Below, in pieces: positions 5,889 through 8,686 of a stretch of DNA of 64,000 nt. Within the stretch, counting starts at the first letter, position 1; the number at the start of each line of letters is the position of its first letter. Both the position numbers and the translations under genes were made by a program. This DNA is from Phycisphaerae bacterium (GTDB lineage Bacteria > Planctomycetota > Phycisphaerae > Phycisphaerales > Phycisphaeraceae): the NCBI GenBank assembly GCA_030432595.1, contig JAUIGU010000014.1:1-64000 (forward strand). The letters are read 5' to 3'. Under the pieces are notes generated by a model that was not told where the DNA came from, did no database searches, and saw nothing but the letters and a program-made list of their open reading frames with translations.

Positions 5889-5962
5889 CACCGCAGAGGA
5901 CGCAGAGGGCCGCAGAGTTTTACTCGTGCTTTTCTCTGCGGCCCTCTGCGATCTCTGCGGTG
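5889..5962. repeat. Long inverted repeat (CCGCAGAGG type) between dgcN and dgcA
   Basis: Two 29-base arms (5889-5917 and 5934-5962) match as inverted complements at 27 of 29 positions around a 16-base T-rich loop. Each arm is built of short GCAGAG-like units. The right arm ends 5 bases before the dgcA ATG, so a transcript hairpin here would sit over the ribosome-binding region of dgcA. Confidence 0.85.
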
Positions 5963-5967
5963 CAACC

Positions 5968-7083
5968 ATGCTCGAACTCAAGCTCCACCCCCTTGAACTG
6001 CCCCTGCGTCACGCCTGGACCATCGCCCACGGCACACGCACCGTCCAGCATAACCTCGTCGTCGAACTCCACGACCCCGACACCGGTCTGTCTGGCTACG
6101 GTGAAGCGGCCGCGATCCCGTACTTCGGGGTGACGATGGAGAAGATGCTGGGAGCTTTCGCGAAAGATGCTGAGAACGATCGATACTTGAAATTCGACTG
6201 GATTGGTTCTGTCTATCAAGTCTTTGATTCAATTAATCAAGTCGGCGAGCAAGATCCGGATACCAGGCGAGGAAAGCCGCCTTGGATCGGTGCCGACTTG
6301 AACGACCCCTCGACTTGCTTTGCAATCTGTGCAGTCGATGAAGCTTGCCATGATTTATGGGGAAAACAGCGGGACAAATCCATTTGGTCAGCTCTTCAGC
6401 TCGACCGTTTAACCTGCCCGCCCTCCGACTACACCATCGGTATCGCCGAACCCGATGTGATGGCCGCGAAATTGAACGAATTTCCGAACTTCCCGGTCTA
6501 CAAGATCAAGCTCGGCACCGGGTCGCCCGAGACCGACCTGAAGCTCGTCGAACGCCTGCGTCAAGAAACCGAGGCGACCTTTCGCGTCGATGCCAACACC
6601 GCGTGGACGGCCGAGCAAACCATCAGGCTCTCCGGCCCGCTCAAGTCGCTTGGCGTCGAGTTCATCGAGCAGCCGCTCAAGCGCGAGCTGCCGCGCAGCG
6701 AGCACGAGGCGGTGTACTTCGGCTCAGACCTGCCGATCATGGCCGACGAGTCTTGCATCACCGAAGGCGACGTGGACGACTGTGCCGGCGTGTTCCACGG
6801 CGTCAACATCAAGCTCATGAAGTGCGGCGGCATGACCCCTGCCCGACGCATGATCGCCCGCGCCCGGGAGCACGGCATGAAGGTCATGATCGGCTGCATG
6901 ACCGAGACCACCGTAGGCATCAGCGCGATCGGCCAACTCCTGCCGCTGCTGGACTACGTCGATATGGACGGCGCGCTCCTGCTCGCCAAAGACGTGGCCG
7001 ACGGCGTCAAGGTCGGCGACGACGGCATCGCCATCTTCCCCGACACCCCCGGCAACGGAGTCACCTGGCACGGGCTGGATTGA
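5968..7083 (+). CDS. dgcA: Enolase-superfamily dipeptide epimerase / N-acetyl-D-glutamate racemase (DgcA-like)
   Basis: The 371-residue protein has the muconate-lactonising subgroup layout: a capping domain (1-130) with LPLRHAWTIAHGT and GYGEAA, then a barrel. Visible active-site residues are the KIK pair (Lys179, Lys181), metal ligands Asp208 (RVDAN), Glu234 (FIEQP) and Asp260 (MADES), and a lysine in NIKLMKCGG (282/285). Such enzymes act on L-Ala-D/L-Glu dipeptides or N-acyl amino acids; the dgcN neighbour favours N-acetyl-D-glutamate. An ATG 42 bases upstream exists, but those codons are the arm of a repeat. Codons for about residues 65-148 are strikingly AT-rich compared with the rest. 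Confidence 0.85.
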   Translation: MLELKLHPLELPLRHAWTIAHGTRTVQHNLVVELHDPDTGLSGYGEAAAIPYFGVTMEKMLGAFAKDAENDRYLKFDWIGSVYQVFDSINQVGEQDPDTRRGKPPWIGADLNDPSTCFAICAVDEACHDLWGKQRDKSIWSALQLDRLTCPPSDYTIGIAEPDVMAAKLNEFPNFPVYKIKLGTGSPETDLKLVERLRQETEATFRVDANTAWTAEQTIRLSGPLKSLGVEFIEQPLKRELPRSEHEAVYFGSDLPIMADESCITEGDVDDCAGVFHGVNIKLMKCGGMTPARRMIARAREHGMKVMIGCMTETTVGISAIGQLLPLLDYVDMDGALLLAKDVADGVKVGDDGIAIFPDTPGNGVTWHGLD

Positions 7084-7328
7084 ACCGCCAAGACGCCGAG
7101 ATCGCCAAGAAACAGACCAAGCAGTTTTGCCGCAGATTTCGCAGATGAACGCAGATATGAAACATTTTGAATCAGGATAGACAGGATGATTCAGGATGAG
7201 GCAAAGATGTTTTGCAATCTCATCCTGCCAATCCAACTCATCCTGATTCTGTTTGTCTGAAACTGCGTATATCTGCGAAATCTGCGGCCAACTTCTGACT
7301 TCTTGGCGTCCTTGGCGTCTTGGCGGTT
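7083..7328. repeat. Compound element of three concentric inverted repeats
   Basis: The whole spacer between dgcA and xseA is one nested palindrome. The outer arms (7083-7111 and 7300-7328, starting AACCGCCAAGACGCC) pair at 26 of 29 positions. Inside lie arms at about 7125-7158 and 7269-7291 made of CGCAGAT units. The innermost arms, about 7168-7200 and 7210-7250, are made of CAGGATGA units around a short loop. The element is visibly AT-richer than the flanking genes. It overlaps the last base of the dgcA stop codon and ends 12 bases before xseA. Confidence 0.85.
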
Positions 7329-7339
7329 AGATTCTTCTG

Positions 7340-8686
7340 ATGTCGCGAACGACCGATCAACCGCTGACCGTCACCGAGGTGGCGGGCCGGATCCGCGGGG
7401 CGCTCGAAGCGGGCCTGCCCGGCAAGCTCCGCGTCGTCGGCGAGATCAGCAACCTCTCGAACCGCTCGCACTGGTTCTTTTCCCTGAAAGACGGCGGCGC
7501 GGCGTTGCGTTGTGTGATGTTCGCGTCGGCGGCGCGGCGGGTGGCGTTTGCCGCGAAGGACGGGCTCGAAGTCGTCGCGACCGGGCGGATCGATTTTTAC
7601 GACGCCCAAGGCAACGTTCAGCTTTACGTGGACAAGCTCGAACCCGTCGGGCAGGGGGCGCTCGAGTTGGAGCTGCGCCGCCTGATGGCCGAGCTGCGGG
7701 AGCTGGGGTATTTCGAGCTGGACCGCAAGAAGCCGCTTCCGGCGGTGCCGCGCAAGGTGGCGGTCGTGACTTCCGTGGGCGGGGCGGCGTTGCAGGACGT
7801 GATCGACACCGCGCGGCGGCGGTGGCCGGGGTGTGAACTGGTGTTGATCGACGTACGGGTGCAGGGCGCGGACGCGGCGCCGCAGGTGAGCAGGGCGCTC
7901 CGCAAACTGTCGCAGCGTGGGAAGGCGTGGGGGATCGACGCGGTGATCCTGACGCGCGGCGGCGGGAGCATCGAGGACCTCTGGGCGTTCAACGAGCGCG
8001 ACGTCGCCGATGCTTTGTTCAAGTGCAAACTGCCCGTGGTGGCCGCGATTGGGCACGAGACCGACACGACCATTGCCGAACTGGTCGCGGACGTGCGCTG
8101 CGCGACACCGACGCAGGCGGCGATGACCGTGGTGCCCGACGCGGCAGCGCTTTCGGAACAGGTCACGCAATTGCAACGCCGGCTGTCGCTGGGGCTGCGG
8201 CGACGGGTGGAATACGCCCGGCAACGCGTGGACAGTGCCGCCAGGCACCGCCTGCTCGCCCGGCCCGAACAACTGGTCCGGGACGCGGACGCCGAGCTCA
8301 AGCGTGTCGCGGCCCGGCTGCGGCCCGCGGTCACGCGCCGGCTGAACGATGCCAGGACAACGCTCGCGTCCACCGCCCGCCACCTCGACGCCGTCGCGCC
8401 CCAGCGCGTGCTCGAGCGCGGCTTCACCTACACCACCGACGCGGACGGCCGGGTGCTGCGGCAGTCCGGGCAGGCGACCCAGGCCGGCTCGATCGTGACC
8501 GTCTTCCCCGACGGCCGGGTGGCCAGCGTGGTGGTCGGGGCGGCGAGCGATCCCACGGACCAACCCGCGACGCCGAACTCCGCCCACCCGACGTCCTCGC
8601 CGGCGTCTCGCTCGCCGCATCCGCGCAAGAAGACGCGCCGCCGCGGCAAGACTTCCGGGGGCGGGCCGTCGTTGTTCGAGCGGTGA
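7340..8686 (+). CDS. xseA: Exodeoxyribonuclease VII large subunit
   Basis: XseA is the catalytic subunit of the single-strand exonuclease VII used in recombination and mismatch repair. The 448-residue protein has the N-terminal OB fold (VVGEISNLSNRSHWFFSLKD), the central nuclease domain with VAVVTSVGGAALQD, LTRGGGSIEDLWAFN and the metal/catalytic segment AAIGHETDTTIAELVADVRCATPTQAA, then the long helical arm. The C-terminus ends in a Lys/Arg-rich low-complexity tail. xseB lies 178 bases downstream, separated by a repeat. Confidence 0.96.
   Translation: MSRTTDQPLTVTEVAGRIRGALEAGLPGKLRVVGEISNLSNRSHWFFSLKDGGAALRCVMFASAARRVAFAAKDGLEVVATGRIDFYDAQGNVQLYVDKLEPVGQGALELELRRLMAELRELGYFELDRKKPLPAVPRKVAVVTSVGGAALQDVIDTARRRWPGCELVLIDVRVQGADAAPQVSRALRKLSQRGKAWGIDAVILTRGGGSIEDLWAFNERDVADALFKCKLPVVAAIGHETDTTIAELVADVRCATPTQAAMTVVPDAAALSEQVTQLQRRLSLGLRRRVEYARQRVDSAARHRLLARPEQLVRDADAELKRVAARLRPAVTRRLNDARTTLASTARHLDAVAPQRVLERGFTYTTDADGRVLRQSGQATQAGSIVTVFPDGRVASVVVGAASDPTDQPATPNSAHPTSSPASRSPHPRKKTRRRGKTSGGGPSLFER

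Follow-up and report, generated by a model that had tools for sequence, protein, structure and literature searches.

Concentric gene-less palindromes between dgcA and xseA in a Phycisphaerae bacterium and their possible kinship with GxxExxY nuclease cassettes

In the window, the whole stretch of 64,000 nucleotides from a Phycisphaerae bacterium analysed here, the spacer between dgcA and xseA is filled by three inverted-repeat layers, A (GCCAAG units), B (CGCAGAT units) and C (CAGGAT units), which are nested on one centre (Table 1). This arrangement raises the question how different palindromes came to share a centre, and whether they represent one composite element, a product of local DNA copying, a regulatory hairpin or successive insertions of mobile DNA.

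The stack in the dgcA-xseA spacer

Three concentric inverted repeats at 7083-7328 had been described in an initial annotation of the window, and the arm coordinates, the unit matches and the predicted fold agree with that description. The gene names given there are supported by profile matches to the MR/MLE enolase family for dgcA (MR_MLE_C above the cut-off, MR_MLE_N just under it) and to Exonuc_VII_L for xseA. GCCAAG-type units lie at 7087, 7095 and 7104 in the left and at 7302, 7311 and 7319 in the right outer arm, and the CGCAGAT units at 7131, 7140 and 7150 have exact partners at 7271 and 7280. The C layer is weaker and staggered, pairing 7179-7200 with 7237-7258 (77%), 7169-7178 with 7240-7249 (10 nt, 100%) and 7175-7189 with 7220-7234 (87%). 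Calculated from the arm coordinates, the centres of the three layers fall within about 6 nt of each other (7205-7211). The dgcA stop codon (TGA, 7081-7083) is composed of TG and the first A of the left A arm, and the right end of the element is separated by 11 nt from the xseA start codon. Upstream, dgcA is preceded by a D-type palindrome, which the initial annotation had overlooked, so that the gene is bracketed by two palindromes of different type. The true start of dgcA is probably the ATG at 5968 and not 5926, since the listed open reading frame begins within the D palindrome and its first 14 codons read through the right arm of that palindrome.

Table 1. Positions of the palindrome arms and neighbouring genes in the window.
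Feature	Position	Strand	Description
Outer (A) left arm	7083..7111	+	29 nt; three GCCAAG-type units; foot AACCGCC
Outer (A) right arm	7300..7328	-	29 nt; 90% complementary to left A arm
Middle (B) left arm	7126..7154	+	29 nt; three CGCAGAT units
Middle (B) right arm	7263..7291	-	29 nt; 90% complementary to left B arm
Inner (C) left arm	7169..7200	+	CAGGAT units at 7173, 7182, 7192
Inner (C) right arm	7220..7258	-	exact ATCCTG units at 7222 and 7240; one unit degenerate; 77-100% pairing by piece
Apical loop	7201..7219	.	no gene
dgcA-like dipeptide epimerase (MR_MLE)	5926..7083 as listed ORF	+	MR/MLE enolase family
xseA, exonuclease VII large subunit	7340..8686	+	Exonuc_VII_L match
Second, simple palindrome, D type (CGCAGAG units)	about 5890..5962	.	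between upstream gene (ends 5881) and dgcA

Folding of the RNA, which had been suggested as a check, yielded -156.8 kcal/mol for 7050-7360 (z -13.7), a value that none of 100 dinucleotide shuffles reached. Rfam contained nothing over the gathering score for the window element, the only match being MIR841 with 36.6 bits against a gathering score of 200. Neither an intrinsic terminator (a stem followed by a T run) nor a promoter-like site was found at the element, and the sole terminator-like match lies inside xseA.

Single modules, stacks and unoccupied junctions

A BLAST search with the 246-base element against its own genome (4.39 Mb) returned 85 matches, one place often being counted on both strands. 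Exact pairs of GCCAAGA units occurred 22 times compared to 0 in the reversed control, the B motif 57 times compared to 2 and the A foot 59 times compared to 10, with 37 of the 59 foot matches having at most one mismatch; the genome contains about 20 A palindromes. A chance composite, considered in the initial annotation for the case that the arm pairs never occur at other loci, is contradicted by these many loci in the same genome. Maps of 31 loci added the types D (CACAGAG/CGCAGAG) and E (CACGGAT) to A, B and C. Within this genome, A stands alone at L046, L054 and L055 and B alone at L043:3025-3154, and the layers combine, from outside to inside, as A>B, A>D, D>B>C and A>D>B>C (the four-layer stack L047), as well as in the reversed order B>A (L045). 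Hence, of the two origins proposed at the outset, different palindromes stacked in each other's loops stands, and one element built of three modules is not supported, since A and B are found singly and the modules in several orders. Two A shells surround other open frames as if a shell could carry cargo: pentapeptide-like ORFs under the Pfam cut-off in L036 (3150-3950) and a 136-aa ORF, which is not the nuclease described below, in L048 (3060-3640).

The loci for the analyses of nesting, symmetry, target sites and gene orientation were chosen for their resemblance to A, B or C, and arm types and unit motifs were defined after inspection of the loci. Among paired modules from 39 own-genome sources and 20 loci of relatives, 21 were nested, 10 disjoint and none crossing, under a pairing rule that favours nesting. 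The inner elements of 17 direct nestings deviated from the middle of the outer loop by 0.097 on average, compared to 0.25 for random placement (one-sided KS p 6e-5; two-sided against uniform positions p 0.085). As a rule, the gaps between layers lacked complementarity (medians 4.5 and 4.5, means 7.2 and 4.8, n=17), and the excess in the means was due to three gaps (L038, L040, L111) holding arms that the motif scan had missed. The layers therefore look like separate palindromes on one centre and not like one mirror-copied arm, so that a single mirror duplication of a whole A-B-C arm is not favoured.

Comparison with the congener G001, of which contigs 1-20 (at most 20 kb of each), nine additional stretches and some loci from searches were covered, provided orthologous junctions for 12 elements, of which 11 were comparable (L034 was not). 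L317 883-997 and L041 4533-4866 were left out of the count, since neither is an element. The same full element was kept at none of the 11, and eight G001 junctions were without palindrome; all of these concern sister elements, as the junction of the window falls at a G001 contig break. The spacers of these G001 sites measured 17 nt opposite the B>A element of L045, 54 nt opposite the four-layer stack L047, 10 nt opposite the B>C element and about 12 nt from stop to ATG opposite the GAAG palindrome of L041, 13 nt opposite L098, 82 nt opposite L094, 67 nt opposite the D element of L043 and 92 nt, with an apparent single arm remnant, opposite L050. Two junctions carried another palindrome, A in place of B (L043) and a borderline case at lysS|lolC, and at the junction matching L036 the A shell was kept with a different interior. 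No intermediate with one layer fewer was seen at the same junction, the unoccupied site facing the four-layer stack being the G001 counterpart of L047. Presence and absence at orthologous sites, which is expected of mobile elements, was thus observed for sister elements of the stack. Single pairs of genomes cannot separate loss from gain, but gain is the more parsimonious explanation given the very short gaps in several genera.

In G010, which belongs to another genus and in which dgcA and xseA are neighbours as well, the spacer of about 407 nt lacks arrays of the A, B and C types and contains a different small palindrome with GGTCTGGT units. Upstream of xseA in G007, again from another genus, a nested palindrome pair with CGCAGAG outside and GGAAGCCAGGAA inside was noted (L018, about 2831-2993). 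The different G010 spacer, the unoccupied congener junctions and the lack of a terminator-like or promoter-like site at the window element make it very improbable that the stack is a bidirectional terminator or mRNA-stability hairpin kept to regulate dgcA and xseA, even though its RNA is predicted to fold very stably and, by an ORF heuristic, most own-genome elements (28/37) are flanked by co-directional genes, with 5 at convergent and 4 at divergent positions. Effects on dgcA or xseA expression are possible as a side effect.

Beyond this genome, the exact pattern AACCGCCAAGACGCCAAGA, 0-3 bases, GCCAAG was found in at least 117 stretches of GTDB genomes. Among the matches listed, the exact 25-28-nt A arm pattern stood under record titles of more than 10 phyla, although these titles mostly denote MAGs, which can be misbinned. 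The titles comprise Cyanobacteria, Chloroflexi/Thermomicrobiales, Alpha-, Beta- and Gammaproteobacteria, Myxococcales, Sorangium, Planctomycetota, Lentisphaerae, Verrucomicrobia, Armatimonadota, Acetothermia, Hydrogenedentota, Bacteroidetes and Deferrisomatales. IMG/VR contained the A pattern in 7 stretches of 6 contigs, and two of these carry one 27-nt A arm each, embedded in long open frames that it leaves unbroken (L086 at about 6950, with overlapping frames of 397 and 596 aa; L090 at about 4680, with a frame of 752 aa). Among the 80 of the 117 loci that were inspected individually (L122-L201), five cyanobacterial ones (L142, L153, L177, L196, L199) have solo A arms followed by a common stretch like GTAGAGTGTGCGTAAGTCCTA, which represents a different context for the A arm. 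An uninterrupted run of seven GCCAAG units was observed at a contig end of a gammaproteobacterial assembly (L124, 4159-4216).

The 117 listed stretches were all used for the tests of A-pair symmetry and target sites. In 90 A pairs, direct target-site duplications of 3-9 nt within 4 nt of the foot showed no excess over cross pairs, and repeats exactly at the foot were found in 2/90 pairs for k 3 (cross pairs 0.7%) and in 1/90 for k 4. A slight excess of symmetry extended about 6 nt outward from the A feet. Beyond the AACC foot, the symmetry of 85/90 pairs did not exceed the top 1% of cross pairs, and a general inverted duplication of the flanking target at A feet was rejected on this basis. Three of the five pairs above this level are explained by further arms (L045, L053, L149), one is weak (L218), and in L194 (4435-5052) 23 nt of flank beyond the left A arm recur inverted beyond the right arm, possibly as an inverted target duplication. 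In several cassettes with other arms (L264, L279, L281), the inverted alignments extend past the array.

The last two observations, together with the absent target-site duplication and the different unit types that one junction (lysS|lolC) displays between genera, would fit palindromes that arose locally through replication slippage, template switching or quasi-palindrome correction and without any mobile element, with their occurrence in several phyla resulting from convergence on preferred units. We regard this as improbable, considering that an exact 25-28-nt pattern recurs under the titles of more than 10 phyla among the matches listed, that few A pairs are symmetrical beyond the foot and that the gaps between layers are not generally complementary. 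Formation in place would also leave the coupling to a nuclease family unexplained.

GxxExxY nuclease cassettes with matching arms

Some A pairs enclose a gene of the GxxExxY family (TIGR04256), a connection absent from the initial annotation, namely L163, L194 and L195 (E 7e-43 to 9e-46) and L165 with an apparently frameshifted copy. Altogether, GxxExxY similarity was detected in 7/90 A pairs, comprising five near-full-length sequences (L180 included; one apparently frameshifted) and two short remnants in L140 (34 aa, E 6e-6) and L185 (28 aa, E 4e-4). Three linked proteins scored 146-155 bits against TIGR04256 (cut-off 35) and two scored 143-153 bits against PF13366 (cut-off 22); a phage family and a defence family were rejected. 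These cassettes consist of inverted arms, each with about three tandem units of 7-10 nt, around a gene for a protein of about 125 aa. Aligned GxxExxY sequences (n=24) share the invariant residues D72, E82-x-K84 and Q96-x-x-x-Y100. For a structure model with pLDDT 95.9, the top Foldseek match was SSO0001 (E 7.8e-4), which we take to be a Cas4, followed by lambda exonuclease and MGME1 (E up to 6e-3; one match below 1e-3), and the sole sequence match among solved structures had E 0.25. The model indicates a PD-(D/E)XK fold of the RecB/Cas4-like kind, and by fold and conserved residues the protein is a predicted nuclease. A PADLOC scan for defence families returned weak Cas4 matches only (E 0.005-0.008), for one of three proteins.

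The window element contains the inverted pairs of about three-unit arrays with matched unit type that characterize the cassettes, clearly in A and B and more weakly in C, and no GxxExxY gene or remnant between the arms. Its A pair is not among the seven with GxxExxY similarity; the best match of 56 queries (E 0.007 over 49 aa) was not significant and no recognisable gene was found in the A-to-A stretch, in line with the initial view that the element is devoid of coding sequence. Being gene-less, it is classed as a relative of the GxxExxY palindromic cassette and not as a cassette.

A family search located GxxExxY genes at 93 places in 36/61 genomes (35 above the cut-off), including seven copies in the genome studied here. 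Arms were scored at 51 of the 93 places, of which 30 came from the search and 20 were selected, many in A-rich genomes, with L096 in addition. Of 56 non-redundant domains, 53 had both flanks, and inverted arms scored above 99% of shuffles at 50 of these; at 40 the arms exceeded the highest shuffle, and at 38 the own partner was the best of all. When the seven loci fetched through their arms were excluded, arms were present at 43/46 loci from the family search (missing at L242, L261 and L270), or at 42/45 without L276, where A matches on both sides were known before selection. The median arm score was 25 for own pairs and 9.5 for pairs across loci (Wilcoxon p 2e-10), and at the same threshold the control genes xseA and lolC reached 1/45. 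On plasmids of other phyla, arms were found at 4/8 GxxExxY genes, e.g. in Sphingomonas fabD|GxxExxY|fabG and Bacteroides radA|GxxExxY, and clear arms were absent at the other four. By eye, the GxxExxY gene of a Fusobacteria plasmid (L324) lies between direct, not inverted, repeats of about 20 nt. An IMG/VR search with one GxxExxY protein as query gave 12 stretches, none of which was confirmed.

Mapping the arm unit on a maximum-likelihood tree of the 56 domains required 17 changes, compared to a mean of 28.2 after shuffling and with 0/200 shuffles as low. Within a well-supported clade of 26 nucleases, 22 had AGAG arms. By type, clustering was evident for AGAG and CAAG (0/500 shuffles as low) and GAAG (3/500), weak for AGAT (43/500) and absent for AGGAT, AAAG and the type 'other', to which four rows were assigned. 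The clustering crosses host phyla: four nucleases with CAAG (A-type) arms from Chloroflexota, Cyanobacteriota and two planctomycete genera were grouped on a weakly supported branch, and L163, the verrucomicrobial CAAG row, was placed inside the AGAG clade. Gene and arms thus tend to travel together, which does not prove that the nuclease recognises the arms.

Net A counts were higher in the GxxExxY genomes (35 above the cut-off; p 0.019, uncorrected for kinship), and 11/12 genomes with a net A count of at least 15 were GxxExxY-positive compared to 35/61 overall (p 0.0087, with a threshold of our choice and kinship uncorrected). A arrays were more numerous in six genomes with a typed CAAG nuclease than in the other GxxExxY genomes (p 0.0075, with incomplete typing and kinship uncorrected). 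A arrays are also present in G001 and G022, which lack GxxExxY, and none of the seven GxxExxY genes of the genome studied here has A arms despite its many A palindromes. The junction lysS|lolC was examined in loci from 30 of the 60 genomes with a match, and the loci of 25 genomes included the lysS end. These 25 comprised five cassettes, seven gene-less palindromes, eight sites without palindrome, three with other DNA and two borderline cases (among them G022). Three of the cassettes had A arms, G047 had CACGAAG arms, and in G033 a CACCGAG palindrome lay beside the gene. The gene-less palindromes represented six unit types, with the copy of the present genome being of type E, and gaps without palindrome ranged from 3 to 211 nt. 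At two of the sites without palindrome (L310 and L313, from G051 and G006), there is an apparent ordinary hairpin with T-run terminator. On the tree, the nucleases found at lysS|lolC are not united in a single clade, most of the branches in question being weak, and repeated arrival is the more probable interpretation.

Alternatively, the palindromes could be independent MITE-like elements that are moved by another enzyme, with GxxExxY as a passenger in their loops. A shells with other small genes (L036, L048 and a 144-aa ORF in L128), the persistence of A palindromes in a genome none of whose GxxExxY genes is A-armed, and the congener shell with exchanged interior at the L036 junction all agree with such a role. 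Arms at 43/46 family loci and the clustering of arm type on the nuclease tree are not what is expected of a chance passenger, and transposases of the Y1/RAYT type, searched for with Y1_Tnp only, amounted to three weak matches in this genome, without arms in about 3.2 kb around each. We therefore consider this alternative unlikely, though it has appreciable weight.

A possible route to nested palindromes and its relation to known systems

We favour, at a probability of a little over one half (about 0.53), that the dgcA-xseA spacer consists of three gene-less, MITE-like relatives of nuclease cassettes, stacked by insertion at each other's centre. Four observations carry this reading, namely the anatomy of the cassettes, the coupling of arm type to nuclease lineage, the balanced and centred nesting, and occupied next to unoccupied orthologous junctions. 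Cassettes and their gene-less derivatives would come and go in short stop-to-start gaps, mostly between co-directional genes, and might also arrive at the centre of a resident palindrome, which would result in concentric nesting. We infer that the GxxExxY nuclease drives this spread: it may recognise its own arm or cruciform DNA and thereby start copying, by homing-like repair or by single-strand or hairpin integration, and gene-less copies may originate from internal deletion. The centre of a palindrome might be preferred because a cruciform tip could be a good target. The window element would then represent three gene-less satellites, each later one having arrived inside an earlier one.

This reading is challenged mainly by the abundance of A palindromes in a genome that now has no A-armed nuclease gene. 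The driver of the A arms was possibly lost, lies in a missing part of the assembly or is a nuclease with other arms. In addition, joint travel alone might account for a tree common to gene and arms. More broadly, and at somewhat less than even odds, the cassettes and their derivatives could constitute an undescribed class of selfish DNA, in which a RecB/Cas4-like nuclease recognises its own arms, targets gene junctions and palindrome tips without target-site duplication, sheds gene-less satellites in numbers and has crossed more than 10 bacterial phyla; stacks would then be a layered record of successive invasions. We found no description of a link between palindromic arrays and GxxExxY (TIGR04256/PF13366/PDDEXK_3) in the open-access literature searched, where passages that name the family do so only in passing, and no mention of the repeat unit strings; the link may be described elsewhere.

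Short tandem heptamer arrays are scattered through the genomes of many phyla and often translated as spurious peptides. Their connection with one small nuclease family offers a candidate cause and a mechanism that can be tested. Should the nuclease drive the arrays, this would define a class of mobile elements that lacks a transposase or recombinase and is able to use many operon junctions, and the shifts of arm specificity along the nuclease tree would offer a natural series for the study of DNA recognition. Concentric palindromes would likewise be explained, unlike by the MITE or REP models.

Free-standing homing endonucleases, including PD-(D/E)XK homing nucleases, are small selfish intergenic nuclease genes with vertical loss and horizontal spread. 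The cassettes resemble them as small selfish nuclease genes at intergenic sites and in this pattern of loss and spread, and differ by inverted arms of short arrays, many gene-less derivatives and the use of many junctions. Heptamer direct repeats (TAACTGA) of Beggiatoaceae occupy many intergenic sites and were possibly exchanged between distant lineages (PMC4679880). The likeness lies in short heptamers at many intergenic sites; the Beggiatoaceae repeats are direct, and the available part of that article mentions neither palindrome nor nuclease. Rickettsia palindromic elements of about 150 bp can lie in frame within genes, as outlined in a section of PMC10969869, comparable to the single A arms inside open frames of two viral contigs, whereas host and sequence differ and tandem-unit arms and nuclease cassettes are particular to the elements described here. 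REP and REPIN sequences are small intergenic palindromes of high copy number, and the RAYT gene lies elsewhere between long TIRs and the same, tagged repeats, according to the excerpt of PMC3733652, an arrangement similar to palindromes plus cassettes. The feet found here are AACC...GGTT, in contrast to the GTAG/CGTC tag, the arms are tandem 7-10-mers, and the linked protein has a predicted PD-(D/E)XK nuclease fold instead of being a Y1 HUH transposase. MITEs, whose features are summarized in the accessible text of PMC10969869, share with the present elements the terminal inverted repeats, the gene-less dispersed copies, sites unoccupied in a relative and coding versions with like ends. They differ from the 90 A pairs, which lack target-site duplication, and from layers nested on one centre; with Y1_Tnp as the only transposase family searched, no transposase with the same ends was found, and GxxExxY nuclease cassettes were encountered instead.
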